DNA of 47,724 nucleotides from a virus. How positions within the stretch are numbered: position 1 is the first letter of the stretch; the number at the start of each line of letters is the position of its first letter. The stretch covers positions 1 through 47,724 of the IMG/VR virus record IMGVR_UViG_3300032047_000028; one strand, written 5' to 3'. The translations under genes and the position numbers were made by a program. Below, piece by piece: positions 174 to 6,598 of the stretch. The notes below the pieces were generated by a model. That model was not told where the DNA came from. It did no database searches and saw only the letters and a program-made list of their open reading frames with translations.

Positions 174-427
174 AGCTTCTCCCCTAGCGGGGGCTACCGC
201 CCTCGTGTACAGCATATGTATAGCAACGCGTATAGCACAGTGCGGTGAAGTACGCGAAAGATCAGGTCGGTAAGCAAAAGATTAGTAGCGTAAAGTGCGA
301 CACTAGCCTGTTATATTATATAATTAACTACCTAACGTCACACTTTTTAACTTTTCTGCACTTAGAGGTATGGTGTTACACTTGTATACTATTTTACTCT
401 TGTAAACACTTTACCTACTTTTGTTTA
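174..427. other. Non-coding stretch with GC-rich hairpin
   Basis: No convincing gene lies between the stop at 173 and the ATG at 484. Just after the stop there is a small hairpin, CCCC (181-184) against GGGG (189-192) with loop TAGC, and flanking AGC/GCT could extend it. It has no T-run, so it is at best an imperfect terminator. The GC-richer first 130 bases differ from the AT-rich remainder leading to the first promoter-like element. A GTG-initiated 75-codon frame (245-472) is rejected because it overlaps that element and has a Phe/Cys/Tyr-rich random look. Confidence 0.4.
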
Positions 428-459
428 CAAATTAAATACGTATCGGTGACGATAATATA
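428..459 (+). promoter_or_regulatory. Bipartite promoter-like element, copy 1
   Basis: CAAA (428-431), TAAATACG (433-440), then exactly 10 bases, then GATAATATA (451-459). The second box resembles a -10 element. The next usable ATG is at 484, 25 bases downstream. An ATG at 461 opens only a three-codon frame. The same two boxes with identical spacing occur five more times in the next 4.3 kb, always in the same orientation. Confidence 0.7.
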
Positions 460-483
460 TATGAAACATTAAAACACATTACT

Positions 484-621
484 ATGACAAAAAGTATAAA
501 CCTTACTGAAAACGATTGTACTTTCGTACACTATGTATTACGCCACTATGCTAAGACAACACCAGACTTAGACAGTGAAGACAGAGAAGAGATCTATGAA
601 GTAGCAAGTAAATTCAAGTGA
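484..621 (+). CDS. Small hypothetical protein, 45 aa
   Basis: ATG at 484 to TGA at 619-621 encodes a 45-residue acidic protein. It is the first gene after promoter-like copy 1, and the next gene starts 1 base after its stop, which suggests a shared transcript. I do not recognise the family. Its coding status is supported by the tight packing and by the promoter-like sequence 25 bases upstream. Confidence 0.6.
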   Translation: MTKSINLTENDCTFVHYVLRHYAKTTPDLDSEDREEIYEVASKFK

Positions 622-622
622 T

Positions 623-805
623 ATGAGTAAATTCAAACAAAATTTAAAAACTACACTTAATATGATAGGGCTAGAAGAGTTAAACAAATATATTGACTGG
701 GATGGTATAGTTAAAGACTATAACCTGAAGAGTGGTGATGTACCACTGCACGACCTAGTAGAGTTGGAACGAATAATAGAAACGTATATTAAAACAAATC
801 AGTAA
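623..805 (+). CDS. Small hypothetical protein, 60 aa
   Basis: A 60-residue, mostly helical-looking protein with no recognised domain. It starts 1 base after the stop of the preceding gene and is followed after 2 bases by a zinc-ribbon gene, so three tiny genes (484-933) form one early operon. Confidence 0.65.
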   Translation: MSKFKQNLKTTLNMIGLEELNKYIDWDGIVKDYNLKSGDVPLHDLVELERIIETYIKTNQ

Positions 806-807
806 TT

Positions 808-933
808 ATGGAATTAGTAAGCGAATGTTGCGGTGCTTCACCTTGGTTAGGCAACACTGACCTCGGAAGATGCGGCGATTGTAAAGAAAATACTGAGTTT
901 GTAGACCTAAGTGAAGATGAGTTTGCAAACTAA
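808..933 (+). CDS. Tiny zinc-ribbon protein, 41 aa
   Basis: ATG at 808 to TAA at 931-933. The 41 residues contain two Cys pairs, CC near residues 7-8 and CxxC at residues 22-25 (RCGDC), a pattern expected of a single zinc ribbon or rubredoxin-like knuckle. Small treble-clef proteins of this kind are common in phage early regions, and what they bind is unknown. The stop codon TAA is also the first three bases of the TAAATACG box of promoter-like copy 2, so the gene end and the control element are fused. Confidence 0.65.
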   Translation: MELVSECCGASPWLGNTDLGRCGDCKENTEFVDLSEDEFAN

Positions 934-957
934 ATACGAACACCAAACGATAATATA
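926..957 (+). promoter_or_regulatory. Bipartite promoter-like element, copy 2
   Basis: CAAAC (926-930), TAAATACG (931-938), 10 bases, GATAATATA (949-957). The ATG of the next gene is at 977, 20 bases downstream. The TAA of the first box is the stop codon of the upstream zinc-ribbon gene. The preceding bases TTTGCAAA form a small palindrome, partly kept in other copies. Confidence 0.72.
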
Positions 958-976
958 AATATAAAATACAAAAGTT

Positions 977-1180
977 ATGCCAAATATGAGTTATTGCAGG
1001 TATGAAAATACCTCGCTAGATATGCAAGATGTAGTAGATACCTTATGGGATAGTGACTGCAGTGAAAACTTAAGCGATTACGAGACACGTGGCTTAAGAA
1101 CCATACTAGAACTAGCTAAAGAAATAGTAGGTATGGAAGACAAAATAGATAACATACTTGATAATCAAGAAGAGCTATGA
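977..1180 (+). CDS. Small conserved-type phage protein, 67 aa
   Basis: A 67-residue protein beginning MPNMSYCRYENT. From memory, short phage proteins with an MSYCRFENT-like N-terminus are widespread, but their function is unknown to me. The second Met (base 986) would give the common MSYCR start. The remainder is predicted helical and acidic. Its stop overlaps the next ATG (ATGA at 1177-1180), indicating translational coupling. Confidence 0.7.
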   Translation: MPNMSYCRYENTSLDMQDVVDTLWDSDCSENLSDYETRGLRTILELAKEIVGMEDKIDNILDNQEEL

Positions 1181-1413
1181 GCGGTATTAATACAACACCA
1201 CTTACAGTACGTGACGTACCACTAACAGTAAGTTACTACCATCATGCCGGTGAACCAATGGTTATGTATTACAAAGACGGGTCAGGTCACCCAGGTGAAC
1301 CACCTTCAATTGAAATACAAGCGGTATATGCAGGTGAGATAGATATTTATGAGCTGTTAGATGCGGATATGTTAGATTATATAGAGTGTAAATTAATAGA
1401 AATACACTATTAA
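1177..1413 (+). CDS. Small hypothetical protein, 78 aa
   Basis: A 78-residue protein with a beta-rich N-terminal half (repeated PLTV motifs, then a Gly/Pro-rich turn) and an acidic C-terminal half. It is coupled to its upstream neighbour by ATGA and to its downstream neighbour by TAATG (1411-1415). No family could be assigned with confidence. Confidence 0.65.
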   Translation: MSGINTTPLTVRDVPLTVSYYHHAGEPMVMYYKDGSGHPGEPPSIEIQAVYAGEIDIYELLDADMLDYIECKLIEIHY

Positions 1414-1589
1414 TGAAACAGCATTATATAACAGTATTAGATTTTACGAATGGTAAAGTATACCAATACGAAGTTGGAGCAGGTATGTTATCAACCGAAG
1501 ACTATGAAGCTTGGCTAGACCAGAAAGGTCATAAGCTAAACAGTATTGAATGGATGCTTCACAAAAACAGTGAAATAATTACAAGCTAA
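1413..1589 (+). CDS. Small hypothetical protein, 58 aa
   Basis: ATG at 1413 shares its A with the preceding stop, and the frame ends at TAA 1587-1589, giving 58 residues. It has a predicted beta-beta-alpha look (tandem Tyr/Val strands, then an Asp-Tyr-Glu-Ala-Trp helix). As in the zinc-ribbon gene, the stop codon is the first triplet of the TAAACACG box of a promoter-like element. Confidence 0.6.
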   Translation: MKQHYITVLDFTNGKVYQYEVGAGMLSTEDYEAWLDQKGHKLNSIEWMLHKNSEIITS

Positions 1590-1613
1590 ACACGAACCAC
1601 ATACGATAATATA
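1582..1613 (+). promoter_or_regulatory. Bipartite promoter-like element, copy 3
   Basis: CAAGC (1582-1586), TAAACACG (1587-1594), 10 bases, GATAATATA (1605-1613). The next ATG is at 1632, 19 bases downstream. It differs from copy 2 at only one base in CAAA and at the Y position of the first box. Confidence 0.72.
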
Positions 1614-1631
1614 ATTGTAAAAAATATAATT

Positions 1632-1829
1632 ATGACTATAAAAATAACCAAGTACAGTAAACGACCACAAGTAAAGTTTAACCATACAAAGTTTATCGGC
1701 TTTAAAATCGGTAGCCTGCCAGTTAACTTTGCTTTCCACGACAAGCGCCAACCCATTACAGAATGGTTTAATGCTAAAGGGTACACGTGGATAAATGCAA
1801 ACAACCTCACACAATCAATTGCAAAGTAA
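1632..1829 (+). CDS. Small basic hypothetical protein, 65 aa
   Basis: A 65-residue Lys-rich protein 19 bases downstream of promoter-like copy 3. It is followed by TAATG coupling (1827-1831) to a zinc-finger gene. No recognised domain. The opposite-strand open frames over it are shadows. Confidence 0.6.
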   Translation: MTIKITKYSKRPQVKFNHTKFIGFKIGSLPVNFAFHDKRQPITEWFNAKGYTWINANNLTQSIAK

Positions 1830-2017
1830 TGAGGTGCAAATGCAATAACATAATACCAGCCGGGCGAGTAAATCTCGGGTACACCAAGTGCACAACTTGT
1901 TCAGACGTTGAACAGTATAGCTACGTACCCATTATCACCCATAAGACTGGTAACACTATTCAAATCGTCAGTCAGGCAACAAGTGCTGCAGTGCACCGGT
2001 CATGGCGACGTAAATGA
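1829..2017 (+). CDS. C4 zinc-finger protein, DksA/TraR-like, 62 aa
   Basis: Starting at ATG 1829, the protein opens MRCKCNNIIPAGR and continues to a second Cys pair (KCTTCSD), giving CxC and CxxC about 17 residues apart. The CxxC, IPxGR and C-x-x-CS arrangement is that of DksA/TraR-type C4 zinc fingers found in short phage proteins. In that family the finger binds RNA polymerase or another partner; the partner here is inferred only. The C-terminus has a THKTGNTIQI segment. An upstream in-frame ATG at 1787 lies inside the previous gene and is less likely. The stop TGA (2015-2017) is the first base-paired triplet of a strong hairpin. Confidence 0.65.
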   Translation: MRCKCNNIIPAGRVNLGYTKCTTCSDVEQYSYVPIITHKTGNTIQIVSQATSAAVHRSWRRK

Positions 2018-2065
2018 GGGGCATCCAAGCAGGGTACACACCGGTAAATGACGTGCGGCCCCTCA
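2015..2065 (+). other. 8-bp GC-rich stem-loop at the end of the zinc-finger gene
   Basis: TGAGGGGC (2015-2022) is perfectly complementary to GCCCCTCA (2058-2065), with a 35-base loop between. The left arm begins with the stop codon of the upstream gene. No T-run follows, so it is not a normal terminator. The right arm can also fold locally as GCCC/GGGC (2058-2061 with 2068-2071), giving a mutually exclusive structure with the RNA downstream. Confidence 0.5.
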
Positions 2066-2068
2066 ACT

Positions 2069-2164
2069 GGGCGTGAAATGGTGGGACTGTTTACTTTGCG
2101 TTCTGAGCTTAGGCAAGACGTTCACTTAGTACAGTTGACGCAGGTTCGAATCCTGCCACGTCCA
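2069..2164 (+). ncRNA. tRNA-like RNA with canonical T arm
   Basis: The 3' part has a perfect T arm: GCAGG (2140-2144), loop TTCGAAT, CCTGC (2152-2156). It is followed by seven bases CACGTCC (2157-2163) and a discriminator-like A, with CTA instead of CCA. CACGTCC pairs with GGGCGTG (2069-2075; one G-U) as an acceptor-like stem, or with GACGTG at 2050-2055 over six bases. No standard D arm or 7-base anticodon loop could be placed in the 64 bases between. Possible stems are GACTGT/ACAGTT (2085-2090/2131-2136) and TTTGC/GCAAG (2095-2099/2113-2117). It may be a degenerate tRNA, a class II tRNA with odd arms, or a tRNA mimic. Confidence 0.4.
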
Positions 2165-2166
2165 CT

Positions 2167-2241
2167 ATGGATAAATATGACACTTTTATATGGTTAGCGA
2201 TATTCTACACTGTGTTAATACTAGTGTGGTTTTTACACTAA
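2167..2241 (+). CDS. Possible 24-aa single-span membrane peptide
   Basis: ATG at 2167, three bases after the tRNA-like element, opens a 24-codon frame ending at TAA 2239-2241. After a short polar start it is almost entirely hydrophobic (Phe, Trp, Leu, Ile, Val), as in a single transmembrane helix. It may be chance. Support comes only from its hydrophobic pattern and its position between other small genes. Confidence 0.3.
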   Translation: MDKYDTFIWLAIFYTVLILVWFLH

Positions 2242-2266
2242 TCACAAACAAATAAAATTATTAATT

Positions 2267-2536
2267 ATGAGTGAAATAACTAACCGACCCTATAACGGGT
2301 GGAATAATTACGCGACCTTTCGTGTTCACCACGATATACTAAACGGATATCAGTGGGATGAGGACGAAGACATATACGTAGACTTACTAAAAGCAATAGT
2401 AGAGAATGCGGTATTTGAAAACAGCGGAGCAGTTGGTTTGATTGTAGACTATGCCAACCTGTTCCTAAATAATGTAGATTGGGAAGAACTAGTAGAAGTA
2501 TATAATTATGACAGAGAAGCAGAGCAATCAAGCTAA
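2267..2536 (+). CDS. Conserved phage protein with NGWxNYAT motif (DUF7249-like)
   Basis: An 89-residue acidic protein with an N-terminal YNGWNNYATFRV segment. From memory this matches a family of small phage proteins (DUF7249-like) whose hallmark is NGWxNYATW near the start; their role is unknown. Its 3' end overlaps the next gene by 29 bases. The preceding gap (2242-2266) has no copy of the promoter-like element. Confidence 0.65.
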   Translation: MSEITNRPYNGWNNYATFRVHHDILNGYQWDEDEDIYVDLLKAIVENAVFENSGAVGLIVDYANLFLNNVDWEELVEVYNYDREAEQSS

Positions 2537-2768
2537 ACGAATAGCAGAGCTGAGAGATACATACGGAATTACATTCCACGGCAACTCCGATGCTATACAC
2601 CTCCTCGAACGTGTCGAGCCGGTAATCCGTGACCAAATACTTGAAACAATAACTGAAGAGTTATTTGAAGACGGAATAGTTGAAGAGACTGATGACAAGT
2701 ACAGTTTATTATTGTCTGTACTATATTATGAGTTGATTTACAAATTAAACACGGATAAAAATAGATAA
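2508..2768 (+). CDS. Hypothetical protein, 86 aa
   Basis: An 86-residue, Glu-rich, mostly helical protein overlapping the end of its upstream neighbour by 29 bases in another frame. I do not recognise it. Its last eight codons and stop form most of promoter-like copy 6, which is therefore inside coding sequence. Confidence 0.6.
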   Translation: MTEKQSNQAKRIAELRDTYGITFHGNSDAIHLLERVEPVIRDQILETITEELFEDGIVEETDDKYSLLLSVLYYELIYKLNTDKNR

Positions 2769-2772
2769 TACA
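2741..2772 (+). promoter_or_regulatory. Bipartite promoter-like element, copy 6 (variant)
   Basis: CAAAT (2741-2745), TAAACACG (2746-2753), 10 bases, GATAATACA (2764-2772), one mismatch in the second box. It sits over the final codons of the upstream gene. The next ATG (2776) is only 3 bases after the second box, so the message would be leaderless or translation would start at the in-frame ATG at 2806. Confidence 0.6.
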
Positions 2773-2775
2773 AAT

Positions 2776-3009
2776 ATGAAAGAGAAATATCCAACTCTGT
2801 ACCAAATGCTTAAAGATGAGTACAGAATAAATTTAATTAATAACAAAGTTAAGTGGCAATACTTAGGCGAAGCAGCCGAAGAAGCACTTAGTAAAAACAA
2901 GTTTGTTGTAGACTTAACCGTTGGTGAGCTAGGTTATATAGCCGATATGGTAGAGTTATCAAGCTGGGACCAAATATACACAATTTTTAATTTAGAGATG
3001 CATGAGTAA
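2776..3009 (+). CDS. Hypothetical protein, 77 aa
   Basis: A 77-residue protein with no domain I can name. If the promoter-like element ending at 2772 acts as its promoter, the annotated ATG lies at or before the expected transcript start, and the in-frame ATG at 2806 (67 aa) becomes the better start. It overlaps the next gene by 8 bases. Confidence 0.6.
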   Translation: MKEKYPTLYQMLKDEYRINLINNKVKWQYLGEAAEEALSKNKFVVDLTVGELGYIADMVELSSWDQIYTIFNLEMHE

Positions 3010-3469
3010 AAAGAAGTACATTACAGACGAGTTAATCGAAAAGCGGTTAAATAAACAAGGCCTGTCTTCATACAATGGCTATGGGGCAGAAGATGAAGAT
3101 GAAGACTATAAAAAGTTATGTGAACATTATGAATTTGAACTTACCGATCAATGGAACAAGTATGTAGACTATTGGTTATATACTGAAACAACTGCAGACG
3201 GTTACGAAATATGGATTGCAACTGATAATGGTAATGGCGAAGTTAATGTAAATGAAGACGTTCACTATTACGATAATGACCTTTCAGAAGTTCTCACAGA
3301 ATGGATTAGATATGGTAGTTGTAAAATATATGTAGACGATATGGAAACGTATTATGTAACCGAAGCACTGGAGACTATGTGGGAAAACATGATTGACAGT
3401 ATTAAAGACAATATAATTGTAAAACTAGAAGATGAAGGATATGAATGGGAAGCCGACACTAATAAGTAA
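3002..3469 (+). CDS. Acidic hypothetical protein, 155 aa
   Basis: A 155-residue strongly acidic protein with a run of Glu/Asp near residues 30-36 and many Tyr and Trp residues. The high negative charge and small size recall phage DNA-mimic or host-inhibitor proteins, but that is only an analogy. It overlaps both neighbours by a few codons. No catalytic motif is visible. Confidence 0.6.
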   Translation: MSKKKYITDELIEKRLNKQGLSSYNGYGAEDEDEDYKKLCEHYEFELTDQWNKYVDYWLYTETTADGYEIWIATDNGNGEVNVNEDVHYYDNDLSEVLTEWIRYGSCKIYVDDMETYYVTEALETMWENMIDSIKDNIIVKLEDEGYEWEADTNK

Positions 3470-3686
3470 GCCACTACCAAAATGGTTCGATGGTGAAATA
3501 TATAACAAAGGTGCTACAGTAACAAACCCTTATACAGGTGAAACAGTAGACCTATCAGCTGAAGAGTTGTCTATGTACGATGTAATTAAAGGAGCTGAAT
3601 TTACAAGACACTATAAACTTTTGCAGCGAGGTTTAGACTGGTTTAGACAGTCAAACCCAGACGCATATATGACATTACTTGACTGA
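3441..3686 (+). CDS. Conserved phage protein with NPYTGE and KGAEF motifs
   Basis: A protein of about 81 residues from ATG 3441 (ATG 3432 adds three residues). It contains NPYTGETVDLSAEE, YDVIKGAEF and GLDWFRQSNPDAYM segments. From memory this belongs to a small conserved family in marine phages, often with NPFSGE at the same place, of unknown function. It overlaps the preceding gene by about 30 bases and stops 2 bases before the next ATG. Confidence 0.7.
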   Translation: MNGKPTLISKPLPKWFDGEIYNKGATVTNPYTGETVDLSAEELSMYDVIKGAEFTRHYKLLQRGLDWFRQSNPDAYMTLLD

Positions 3687-3688
3687 TT

Positions 3689-4069
3689 ATGAAGGACTTA
3701 CAAAACATTCTTAAGTTAGTAATTGATGAAACCGGAGTAGATATAACTAGTAGGAAACGGGATCATAAAACAGTAATACATAGGTGGATTTATTTTAAGT
3801 TAGCATCAGAGTTTACTAATAACTCTTTACATAAAATTGGTGCTGCAATAAATAAAAACCACGCTACTGTAATTCACGGTTTAAAACAGTTTGAATTTGA
3901 AACGCAATGGGATAAAGATTTGCAAACTCAATACGAACGGATTGCGATAATATATATGCAAGAAACAAAGTGCAATGATTTGAAAAAAATAAATAATAGA
4001 ATTGAATTTATGCACAACGAATTAAGCAAATTAGAAGCGATTAAAAATGAACTTATTAACGCAAAATAG
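3689..4069 (+). CDS. Stand-alone DnaA domain IV-like DNA-binding protein
   Basis: Residues 20-68 of this 126-residue protein resemble DnaA domain IV, the origin-box-binding domain. There is a basic segment SRKRDHKTVIHRW, then KIGAAINKNHATVIHGLK, close to the family signature with a central D/N-H-x-T-V-hydrophobic-H. The AAA+ ATPase domain is absent. Residues 90-126 form a Lys/Glu-rich, coiled-coil-like tail. It may bind the phage or host origin, or compete with host DnaA; these roles are inferred. Promoter-like copy 5 lies within codons 79-89, exactly where the domain IV homology ends. Confidence 0.7.
   Translation: MKDLQNILKLVIDETGVDITSRKRDHKTVIHRWIYFKLASEFTNNSLHKIGAAINKNHATVIHGLKQFEFETQWDKDLQTQYERIAIIYMQETKCNDLKKINNRIEFMHNELSKLEAIKNELINAK
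3923..3954 (+). promoter_or_regulatory. Bipartite promoter-like element, copy 5, inside a gene
   Basis: CAAAC (3923-3927), TCAATACG (3928-3935, one mismatch), 10 bases, GATAATATA (3946-3954). It lies entirely within the DnaA domain IV-like gene. The nearest downstream gene start is at 4047, 93 bases away. An in-frame ATG at 3957 could give a 37-residue C-terminal product. Retention of the spacing and both boxes under coding constraint argues against chance. Confidence 0.6.
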
Positions 4070-4652
4070 TAAATTAAAAAATACGAGTAAACAACTTGGC
4101 GTACGGGTATTCAATTTCGGTATACCTGCATACAAATCAGCCAGCGGTAAACTTACATGCCCAATGGCTAAAGACTGTATCAAGTTTTGTTATGCTAAGA
4201 AAGGCGCATATATATGGAGCAATGTAAAACCTGCTTTTGAAAAGCGCTATGAGCTAACTAAAACGGACAGATTTGTAGATGCAATGAATGCTGAAATAAA
4301 GCGTAAGAAACCCGATTACGTACGTGTCCATGATAGCGGTGATTATTATTCCGGCGCATATCTAAAAAAGTGGATAACGGTTGCTATACACAACCCCGAC
4401 GTCAAGTTTTATTCGTATACTAATATGGTAGATATGTTTCACAAAACCGATCTACCACCTAACTTCGATATCATATTCAGTGATGCCGGTAAACAAGTGC
4501 ATATGATTGATTATGAGCAAGATAGGTACACAAAGATATTCAAATCCGATCAAGAGTTAGATCGTGCCGGGTTTGTAAACGCAAGCAAGGTAGATTTGTT
4601 TGCGACGAAATGGTTCAGTAAGAACAAAAAAATTGGATTAGTATATCACTAA
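4047..4652 (+). CDS. GP88-family protein with Cys-rich radical-SAM-like motif
   Basis: A 201-residue protein that I recognise as the phage 'gene product 88' family. After NSKLKNTSK it has a Cys cluster C38-x5-C44-x3-C48 in CPMAKDCIKFCYA, then RVHDSGD and later FYSYTN segments. The cysteines and the barrel-like order of beta strands recall radical SAM enzymes, but spacing differs from the usual CxxxCxxC and no activity is established to my knowledge. It overlaps the preceding gene by 23 bases. Promoter-like copy 5 is 93 bases upstream of its start and copy 4 follows its stop. Confidence 0.7.
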   Translation: MNLLTQNSKLKNTSKQLGVRVFNFGIPAYKSASGKLTCPMAKDCIKFCYAKKGAYIWSNVKPAFEKRYELTKTDRFVDAMNAEIKRKKPDYVRVHDSGDYYSGAYLKKWITVAIHNPDVKFYSYTNMVDMFHKTDLPPNFDIIFSDAGKQVHMIDYEQDRYTKIFKSDQELDRAGFVNASKVDLFATKWFSKNKKIGLVYH

Positions 4653-4656
4653 TATA

Positions 4657-4688
4657 CAAACTAAACACGAATGGACACAGATAATATA
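4657..4688 (+). promoter_or_regulatory. Bipartite promoter-like element, copy 4
   Basis: CAAAC (4657-4661), TAAACACG (4662-4669), 10 bases, GATAATATA (4680-4688). It starts 4 bases after the stop of the GP88-family gene. A possible ATG at 4671 lies between the two boxes and would be upstream of any transcript start. The ATG at 4707 is 19 bases beyond the second box, the same distance as in copies 2 and 3. Confidence 0.72.
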
Positions 4689-4706
4689 AATAAAGAAGCC
4701 CATACC

Positions 4707-5911: not shown

Positions 5912-5983
5912 TATATTTGCTGTTAGCATAGTGTTTTGTTTAGTATGACGCTAGCTAATTAAGTATCTAAATGTAACAGGCTA

Positions 5984-6598
5984 ATGTCACGTAAAATGCA
6001 GTACTTACATAGTAACAATATAATATATAGGAGAGATCCAATTAGTGATCAACCCACTGAAGTTTATGAGTGGGGTTGGTTTTACAAAGAGGGCACTCAC
6101 CAATGTTATGAGTTATTTAGAAGTAAGGCGCAGATAACTACCTACAAGTCGTTAAAGTGGCATTTGCTTGTTCTTTGGTACTTAAATCCACAGCTCAATC
6201 CAGATAAATTTGAAGAATTAGCTTATATTATAGCCAATAAATCAAATGGTTTTGCTACCTTTGATATGCCAGAGCAGTTGCTAAAGCAGATGATATATGA
6301 AATTAGCATGATGGATTTGGAGCAGCCTCCTAAAAATAAAATTAGAAAAGTTATTTTTAAAGATTTTACAGGGCTGACAAAAAGTGAAAAATTATCTATT
6401 GTAGGCAAACTGATTGGTAGGAGCAGCAAAGCAACTCCGGAGGATATATACGAAACTATGTTATTACTTCACGATGATGATAAAAAAATCACCGTGGCTG
6501 CAATAGCAAAGGTGCTTGGAGTTTCAACCCGTACTGTGTACAGGAATATGACTCATGAGCTAACCAAAGAAAAGGAACTTTTAAATGAAAAAATATAA
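5984..6598 (+). CDS. Helix-turn-helix protein, possible transcription or replication regulator
   Basis: A 204-residue protein whose C-terminal end (about residues 169-189, ITVAAIAKVLGVSTRTVYRN) is a clear helix-turn-helix of the resolvase/sigma region 4 type. The N-terminal part has Trp/Tyr-rich stretches without a recognised domain. It overlaps the sigma-like gene by 14 bases, so the two are probably co-translated. The upstream gap (5912-5983) lacks the 32-bp element. A TATATTTG at 5912-5919 looks like a Bacteroidetes -7 box but has no properly spaced -33 partner. Confidence 0.6.
   Translation: MSRKMQYLHSNNIIYRRDPISDQPTEVYEWGWFYKEGTHQCYELFRSKAQITTYKSLKWHLLVLWYLNPQLNPDKFEELAYIIANKSNGFATFDMPEQLLKQMIYEISMMDLEQPPKNKIRKVIFKDFTGLTKSEKLSIVGKLIGRSSKATPEDIYETMLLLHDDDKKITVAAIAKVLGVSTRTVYRNMTHELTKEKELLNEKI

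Follow-up and report, generated by a model that had tools for sequence, protein, structure and literature searches.

A six-copy element upstream of a phage sigma gene

The stretch analysed here, an IMG/VR virus record of 47,724 bases (IMGVR_UViG_3300032047_000028, referred to as the window), carries a 32-base element in six copies, at 428-459, 926-957, 1582-1613, 2741-2772, 3923-3954 and 4657-4688, all with identical internal spacing. The copies are followed by the gene of a helix-turn-helix (HTH) protein and, overlapping it, the gene of a sigma-70 family protein (Table 1). Their number, length, coordinates and restriction to the plus strand had been predicted from the window and are borne out, with no seventh copy in the window: exactly six matches are found at up to three mismatches, against 0.02 expected from dinucleotide shuffles. 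With a weight matrix built from the six, the copies score 42.9-49.9 bits and the runner-up on both strands of the window 7.6. The six-fold recurrence of the element is not due to chance.

The original prediction described the element as CAAR followed by TAAAYACG and a gap of exactly 10 bases. The coordinates and the spacing stand, but the wording needs correction: a single base, C or T, separates CAAR from TAAAYACG, and two copies deviate, the one at 3923 reading TCAATACG and the one at 2741 reading GATAATACA. The conserved stretch is also longer than the 32 bases noted, extending from about -38 (TTA or TTG ahead of CAAA) to a T-purine at predicted -1/+1.

Table 1. Predicted promoters, neighbouring genes and inverted repeats in the window. 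Each promoter is given from -38 to predicted +1.
Feature	Position	Strand	Remarks
45-bp inverted repeat, second copy	297..341	.	86 bp before promoter 1
Promoter 1	425..463	+	predicted +1 at 463; then reading frame 484-621
Promoter 2	923..961	+	predicted +1 at 961; then gene 977-1180
Promoter 3	1579..1617	+	predicted +1 at 1617; then gene 1632-1829
Promoter 4	2738..2776	+	predicted +1 at 2776, the first ATG base of gene 2776-3009; predicted leaderless
Promoter 5	3920..3958	+	predicted +1 at 3958; within reading frame 3689-4069; then GP88-family gene 4047-4652
Promoter 6	4654..4692	+	predicted +1 at 4692; next gene's start codon 4707, not 4671
45-bp inverted repeat	5945..5989	.	over HTH start codon
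HTH protein gene	5984..6598	+	Pfam HTH_23; overlaps sigma gene; proposed target the 45-bp inverted repeat, not the promoters
Phage sigma-70 family gene, 253 amino acids	6585..7346	+	Pfam regions 2 and 4, phrog_351, TIGR02937; co-occurrence with promoters

The element is confined to genomes that encode the sigma factor

The sigma protein scores 32.3 bits with Pfam Sigma70_r2 (cut-off 24), 26.2 with Sigma70_r4 (cut-off 24.1) and 58.3 with TIGR02937 (cut-off 42.9), and thus reaches general sigma-70 membership. It falls far short of the subfamily cut-offs for FliA/WhiG, SigB/F/G, RpoD and RpoS, none of which is reached (FliA_WhiG 47.5 versus 189.6). The top fold matches of its structure model are sigmaA chains, in a model of low overall confidence (predicted template modelling score, pTM, 0.46).

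We scanned the IMG/VR DNA with a strict pattern of the element, using no protein information, and found it in at least 119 stretches. Among 50 contigs identified by the DNA pattern alone, 32 encode the sigma factor. Sigma region 2 was not found in the other 18, in all of which the copies point to a contig end about 1 kilobase (kb) past the last copy; since the position of the sigma gene falls beyond that end, these contigs are uninformative rather than contrary. When the search started from the sigma protein, the motif was present at up to two mismatches in 41 of 50 contigs, compared with 0 of 50 for a reversed-pattern control.

Further scans yielded 172 distinct sigma sequences. With a weight matrix whose training used part of these same loci, strand and position playing no role, the 172 sigma genomes give 878 matches on the strand of the sigma gene and 12 on the opposite strand. 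The matches cluster in the roughly 10 kb that precede the sigma gene, with a density near one per kb from -9 to -4 kb, and there are almost none downstream. At least two copies are present in 114 of the 117 sigma genomes that have 6 kb or more of upstream sequence. In one exception, L132, the sequence immediately ahead of the sigma gene (upstream of about 8729) is unrelated and holds no promoters, while the near-identical L133 has ten; L132 is probably a chimeric assembly join. In three further exceptions (L319, L272 and L242) altered upstream boxes precede an unchanged GATAATA.

Records related through the portal protein served as the control. The portal of the window phage shares 43-54% identity with the portals of Maribacter phage Panino, of the Flavobacterium phages elemo and of an uncultured podovirus, and is more remotely related to portals of Cellulophaga and Tenacibaculum phages. 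These relationships make a Bacteroidetes host likely. All 31 portal-related records without the sigma gene (seven complete or isolate genomes, the other 24 mostly fragments) also lack the motif at up to three mismatches. The element is therefore confined to sigma-encoding genomes (114 of 117 with the gene, 0 of 31 without it, and 18 of 18 apparent exceptions ending early). The original prediction had looked to related phages for the motif; it is there in the relatives with the sigma gene and absent from those without.

Among 50,697 phage records we found no cultured phage that encodes this sigma factor. In genome bins it occurs in only eight contigs (L219-L226), binned as Aliivibrio, Ilumatobacteraceae, Halieaceae, Sphingobacteriales and others; judged by their sizes and the mixed bin names, these are probably phage contigs mis-binned into bacterial genomes.

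Promoter geometry and predicted start point

The complete promoter can be written as TTTACAAACTAAATACGA-N9-GATAATATAAATR. In the numbering used here GATAAT occupies -12 to -7 and CAAACT -35 to -30, with a hexamer spacer of 17 bp, and the AAYACGA block lies at -28 to -22. AAYACG and GATAAT stand 10 bases apart in 335 cases, while every other gap length from 4 to 16 occurs in at most three. The flanks of the strict-pattern stretches show TTA before CAAA, A after ACG, and T-purine-W past the -10 box; some 20 A-rich bases come next. In the weight matrix of the sigma loci, T at -1 is followed by a strong purine preference at +1, which places the predicted start seven bases past GATAAT.

This start base is independently, if indirectly, supported by the position of start codons: of 723 promoters that precede a gene, 92 place its ATG exactly at +1, compared with 3 and 9 for the adjacent positions. 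Only 17 of 268 ATGs that overlap -2 to +1 open a frame of at least 40 amino acids, whereas 27% of ATGs in general do so. The remaining start codons mostly lie 8-24 nucleotides downstream of +1. Messages are predicted to be leaderless or to have a short A-rich leader. In the window an ATG had been noted 19-25 bases past four of the copies, and this holds (25 bases past the copy at 428, 20 at 926, and 19 at both 1582 and 4657); the six predicted starts, including that of a leaderless message, are given in Table 1. At 926-940 and 1582-1595 the promoter box CAARCTAAA includes the TAA that ends the preceding frame.

A-11 and T-7 are the most important positions of sigma-70 promoters generally, and the phage element has both. 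The geometry supports a sigma-70 type promoter with a defined, predicted start point. A repeated, mostly intergenic element, clustered and confined to one strand, could in principle also be an operator or a replication or packaging repeat. We regard this as very improbable, since start codons follow closely with a sharp peak at predicted +1, the core holds the key -10 positions, and the element depends on a sigma gene. The shared regulator site that the original prediction had offered as an alternative is likewise less likely, as the positions of start codons are related to that of the element and GATAAT stands at the place of the -10 box.

The element differs from host promoters

Promoters recognized by the primary sigma factor of Bacteroidetes follow the consensus TTTG / TAnnTTTG (PMC6847099, PMC9723704), and those of Flavobacterium johnsoniae have near-invariant T-12, A-11, T-8, T-7, T-6 and G-5 (PMC6847099). 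The phage element reads G-12, A-11, A-8, T-7, A-6 and T-5. It does not fit TAnnTTTG at -12 to -5, clashing at four of the six near-invariant positions (-12, -8, -6 and -5), and its upstream box is unrelated. The mismatch with the host consensus claimed for it is thereby confirmed, A-11 and T-7 being the only positions that agree. The two promoter classes also resemble each other in short leaders, which are predicted for the phage element, and the lack of a Shine-Dalgarno sequence.

The element could also be read by an RNA polymerase that the phage packages in its virion; related Bacteroidetes phages of the crAss group are reported to transcribe their early genes with such an enzyme (PMC8375218). 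The window encodes a 2218-amino acid protein without a family match and a crAss muzzle-domain protein, which would suit such an arrangement. However, the 2218-amino acid protein has no match to a polymerase family and no DFDGD-type catalytic motif, and A-11, T-7, the 17-bp spacer and a +1 seven bases on make up a geometry of the sigma-70 type. Neither an RNA polymerase family nor a catalytic motif was recognized in any of the large proteins of the window, although a very diverged enzyme could escape such a search. We consider a virion polymerase very improbable.

Copies within a genome change in step

We compared the copies within genomes, using 744 promoters of 106 genomes and shuffled copies as reference. 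Copies from the same genome are more alike than the shuffles, most of all at -13 (77% versus 28%, z 54), -23 (86% versus 64%, z 30) and -30 (63% versus 39%, z 24). In the spacer, at -20 to -16, likeness is near the shuffle level, and the copies are therefore not recent duplicates. Same-genome copies are kept alike where a reader would touch them; shared descent adds to this likeness.

The upstream box varies between genomes while GATAATA stays constant, and the copies inside one genome shift in step. In extreme genomes the whole upstream box is replaced in front of an unchanged GATAATA (TCGAAACATAATACGA, CACGGACTTAT, CCCCAACTAATTAC, CACAAATTAAATT and TTACAAACAAAATAT). As GATAATA served to collect the promoter sets of each genome, its constancy in those sets is partly by design, but it is the most constant part also when the whole matrix is scored and change is allowed anywhere. 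We tentatively suggest, as a plausible reading, that this large uncultured group of Bacteroidetes phages has a private promoter code, in which one sigma family would retain an unchanging GATAATA, the upstream box would be rewritten repeatedly (TACAAACTAAATACGA and the first four of the replaced boxes above) with the copies kept in step, and the lineages would hold mutually distinct sigma-promoter pairs.

A phage sigma factor as the proposed reader

The six elements of the window are very probably promoters of a regulon governed by the phage-encoded sigma factor, which is the simplest reader of the element. A phage-specific promoter family served by a modified polymerase had been put forward for them; its link to the sigma gene wherever a genome is informative, the sigma-70 geometry and the mismatch with the host box all support it. 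We infer that the small sigma-70 protein most likely joins the core RNA polymerase of the Bacteroidetes host. Its region 2 would read the constant -10 box GATAATA (-12 to -6) and its region 4 the upstream box TACAAACT (-37 to -30), whereas AAYACGA (-28 to -22) may be an extended contact of region 4 or the site of another factor. Transcription would begin at the purine seven bases past GATAAT, and the small genes driven by these promoters would be early or middle genes.

Several points weigh against recognition by this sigma factor. Co-occurrence is no proof of it, because the sigma gene and the promoters are inherited together, and the portal-related control set is rich in fragments. A conserved block at -28 to -22 is unusual in a plain sigma-70 promoter. 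Moreover, distances between upstream boxes show a rank correlation of 0.005 with distances between sigma regions 4. Attempts to match promoter changes to residues of the sigma or HTH protein gave weak distance correlations and single associations that follow clades, such as sigma Q231E with T to A at -30, and none could be assigned.

The HTH protein and a 45-bp inverted repeat

The HTH gene adjoins the sigma gene in all 75 loci tested. Its start codon is covered by a 45-bp inverted repeat, GTGACAATAGCCT-N18-AGGCTAATGTCAC, in the window and, overall, in 94 of 113 genomes. Further copies of the repeat occur about 5-10 kb upstream, often 60-400 bp ahead of a promoter; in related loci there are 203 copies, compared with none in shuffles. 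Of the 113 genomes that have the HTH gene, 106 contain the repeat; it is missing from all five (L290, L295, L297, L308 and L241) in which the gene is not found beside the sigma gene. Because the repeat and the HTH gene are lost together, the protein would most likely act on the repeat, which is likely its operator. The five genomes without the HTH gene all retain promoters, with changed upstream boxes and, in three of them, an intact TAATAC.

These observations bear on the possibility that the host holoenzyme with its primary sigma factor reads the element with the help of a phage activator, for instance the HTH protein bound to AAYACGA, in an arrangement like that of MotA. In nearly every genome the HTH gene lies next to the sigma gene or overlaps it, AAYACGA is placed where an activator could bind, and the genes driven resemble those of early regions, classically users of the host sigma factor. 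Yet the -10 region clashes with the host box, promoters persist in the five genomes without the HTH gene, and the inverted repeat, missing in exactly those genomes, is the better target for the HTH protein. Although an unrecognized substitute may act in these five genomes, we find this arrangement unlikely, and the HTH protein as the reader of AAYACGA is weakened by the same genomes. Recognition by the phage sigma factor remains our preferred explanation of the promoters. As to what drives the HTH-sigma pair itself, a cascade starting from the host sigma factor was considered and rejected: a TAnnTTTG stands ahead of the pair in the window (5912), yet the same holds for just 16 of 75 relatives, so that it is no rule.

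Relation to known systems

Phage-encoded sigma factors with promoters of their own include SPO1 gp28, for middle genes, and T4 gp55, for late genes. The phage sigma-70 protein described here would similarly redirect the host core to a class of promoters outside the host consensus. Its sequence, hosts and promoter differ from those of gp28 and gp55, and it reaches only the general sigma-70 cut-off and that of no subfamily. Where T4 gp55 has a bare -10 element, TATAAATA, the phage element has three blocks (TACAAACT, AAYACGA and GATAATA). T4 middle promoters, which have their MotA box near -30, likewise combine a block of conservation close to the -35 position with an extended -10 region; they differ in that no MotA or AsiA homologue was identified here and the adjacent HTH protein is apparently tied to another element. 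Promoters of FliA/sigma-28, TAAAGTTT-N11-GCCGATAA, are similar in the upstream TAAA and the CGATAA-like wording of the -10 box, and FliA is among the profiles that the phage sigma matches. However, TAAA and GATAA are spaced by 14 in the phage element versus 18, and the FliA subfamily cut-off is not reached. No previous description of this promoter turned up in the open-access papers examined, subscription papers and preprints lying outside the search.

To our knowledge, gene regulation in Bacteroidetes phages is almost unknown beyond a few crAss-like isolates. For hundreds of genes from over 100 uncultured phages the element predicts the base at which transcription starts, and it comes with a likely reader; it also corrects start-codon calls and flags leaderless messages. 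The rewritten upstream boxes beside a constant -10 box form a natural series on co-change of sigma factors and promoters, and the variants could supply independent promoter parts for Bacteroidetes, where such parts are few.

Further features of the window

The left arm carries small genes followed by the HTH gene, the sigma gene, and genes for recombination, a primase-helicase, thymidylate synthase and ribonucleotide reductase, with the structural genes on the opposite strand. Because promoter 5 is located inside reading frame 3689-4069, it would be an internal promoter for the GP88-family gene; the frame itself has a DnaA-type HTH domain. A search of the window against Rfam gave no match. Between promoters 3 and 4 lies a tRNA-Gln gene of 97 bases with the anticodon CTG (2069-2165).

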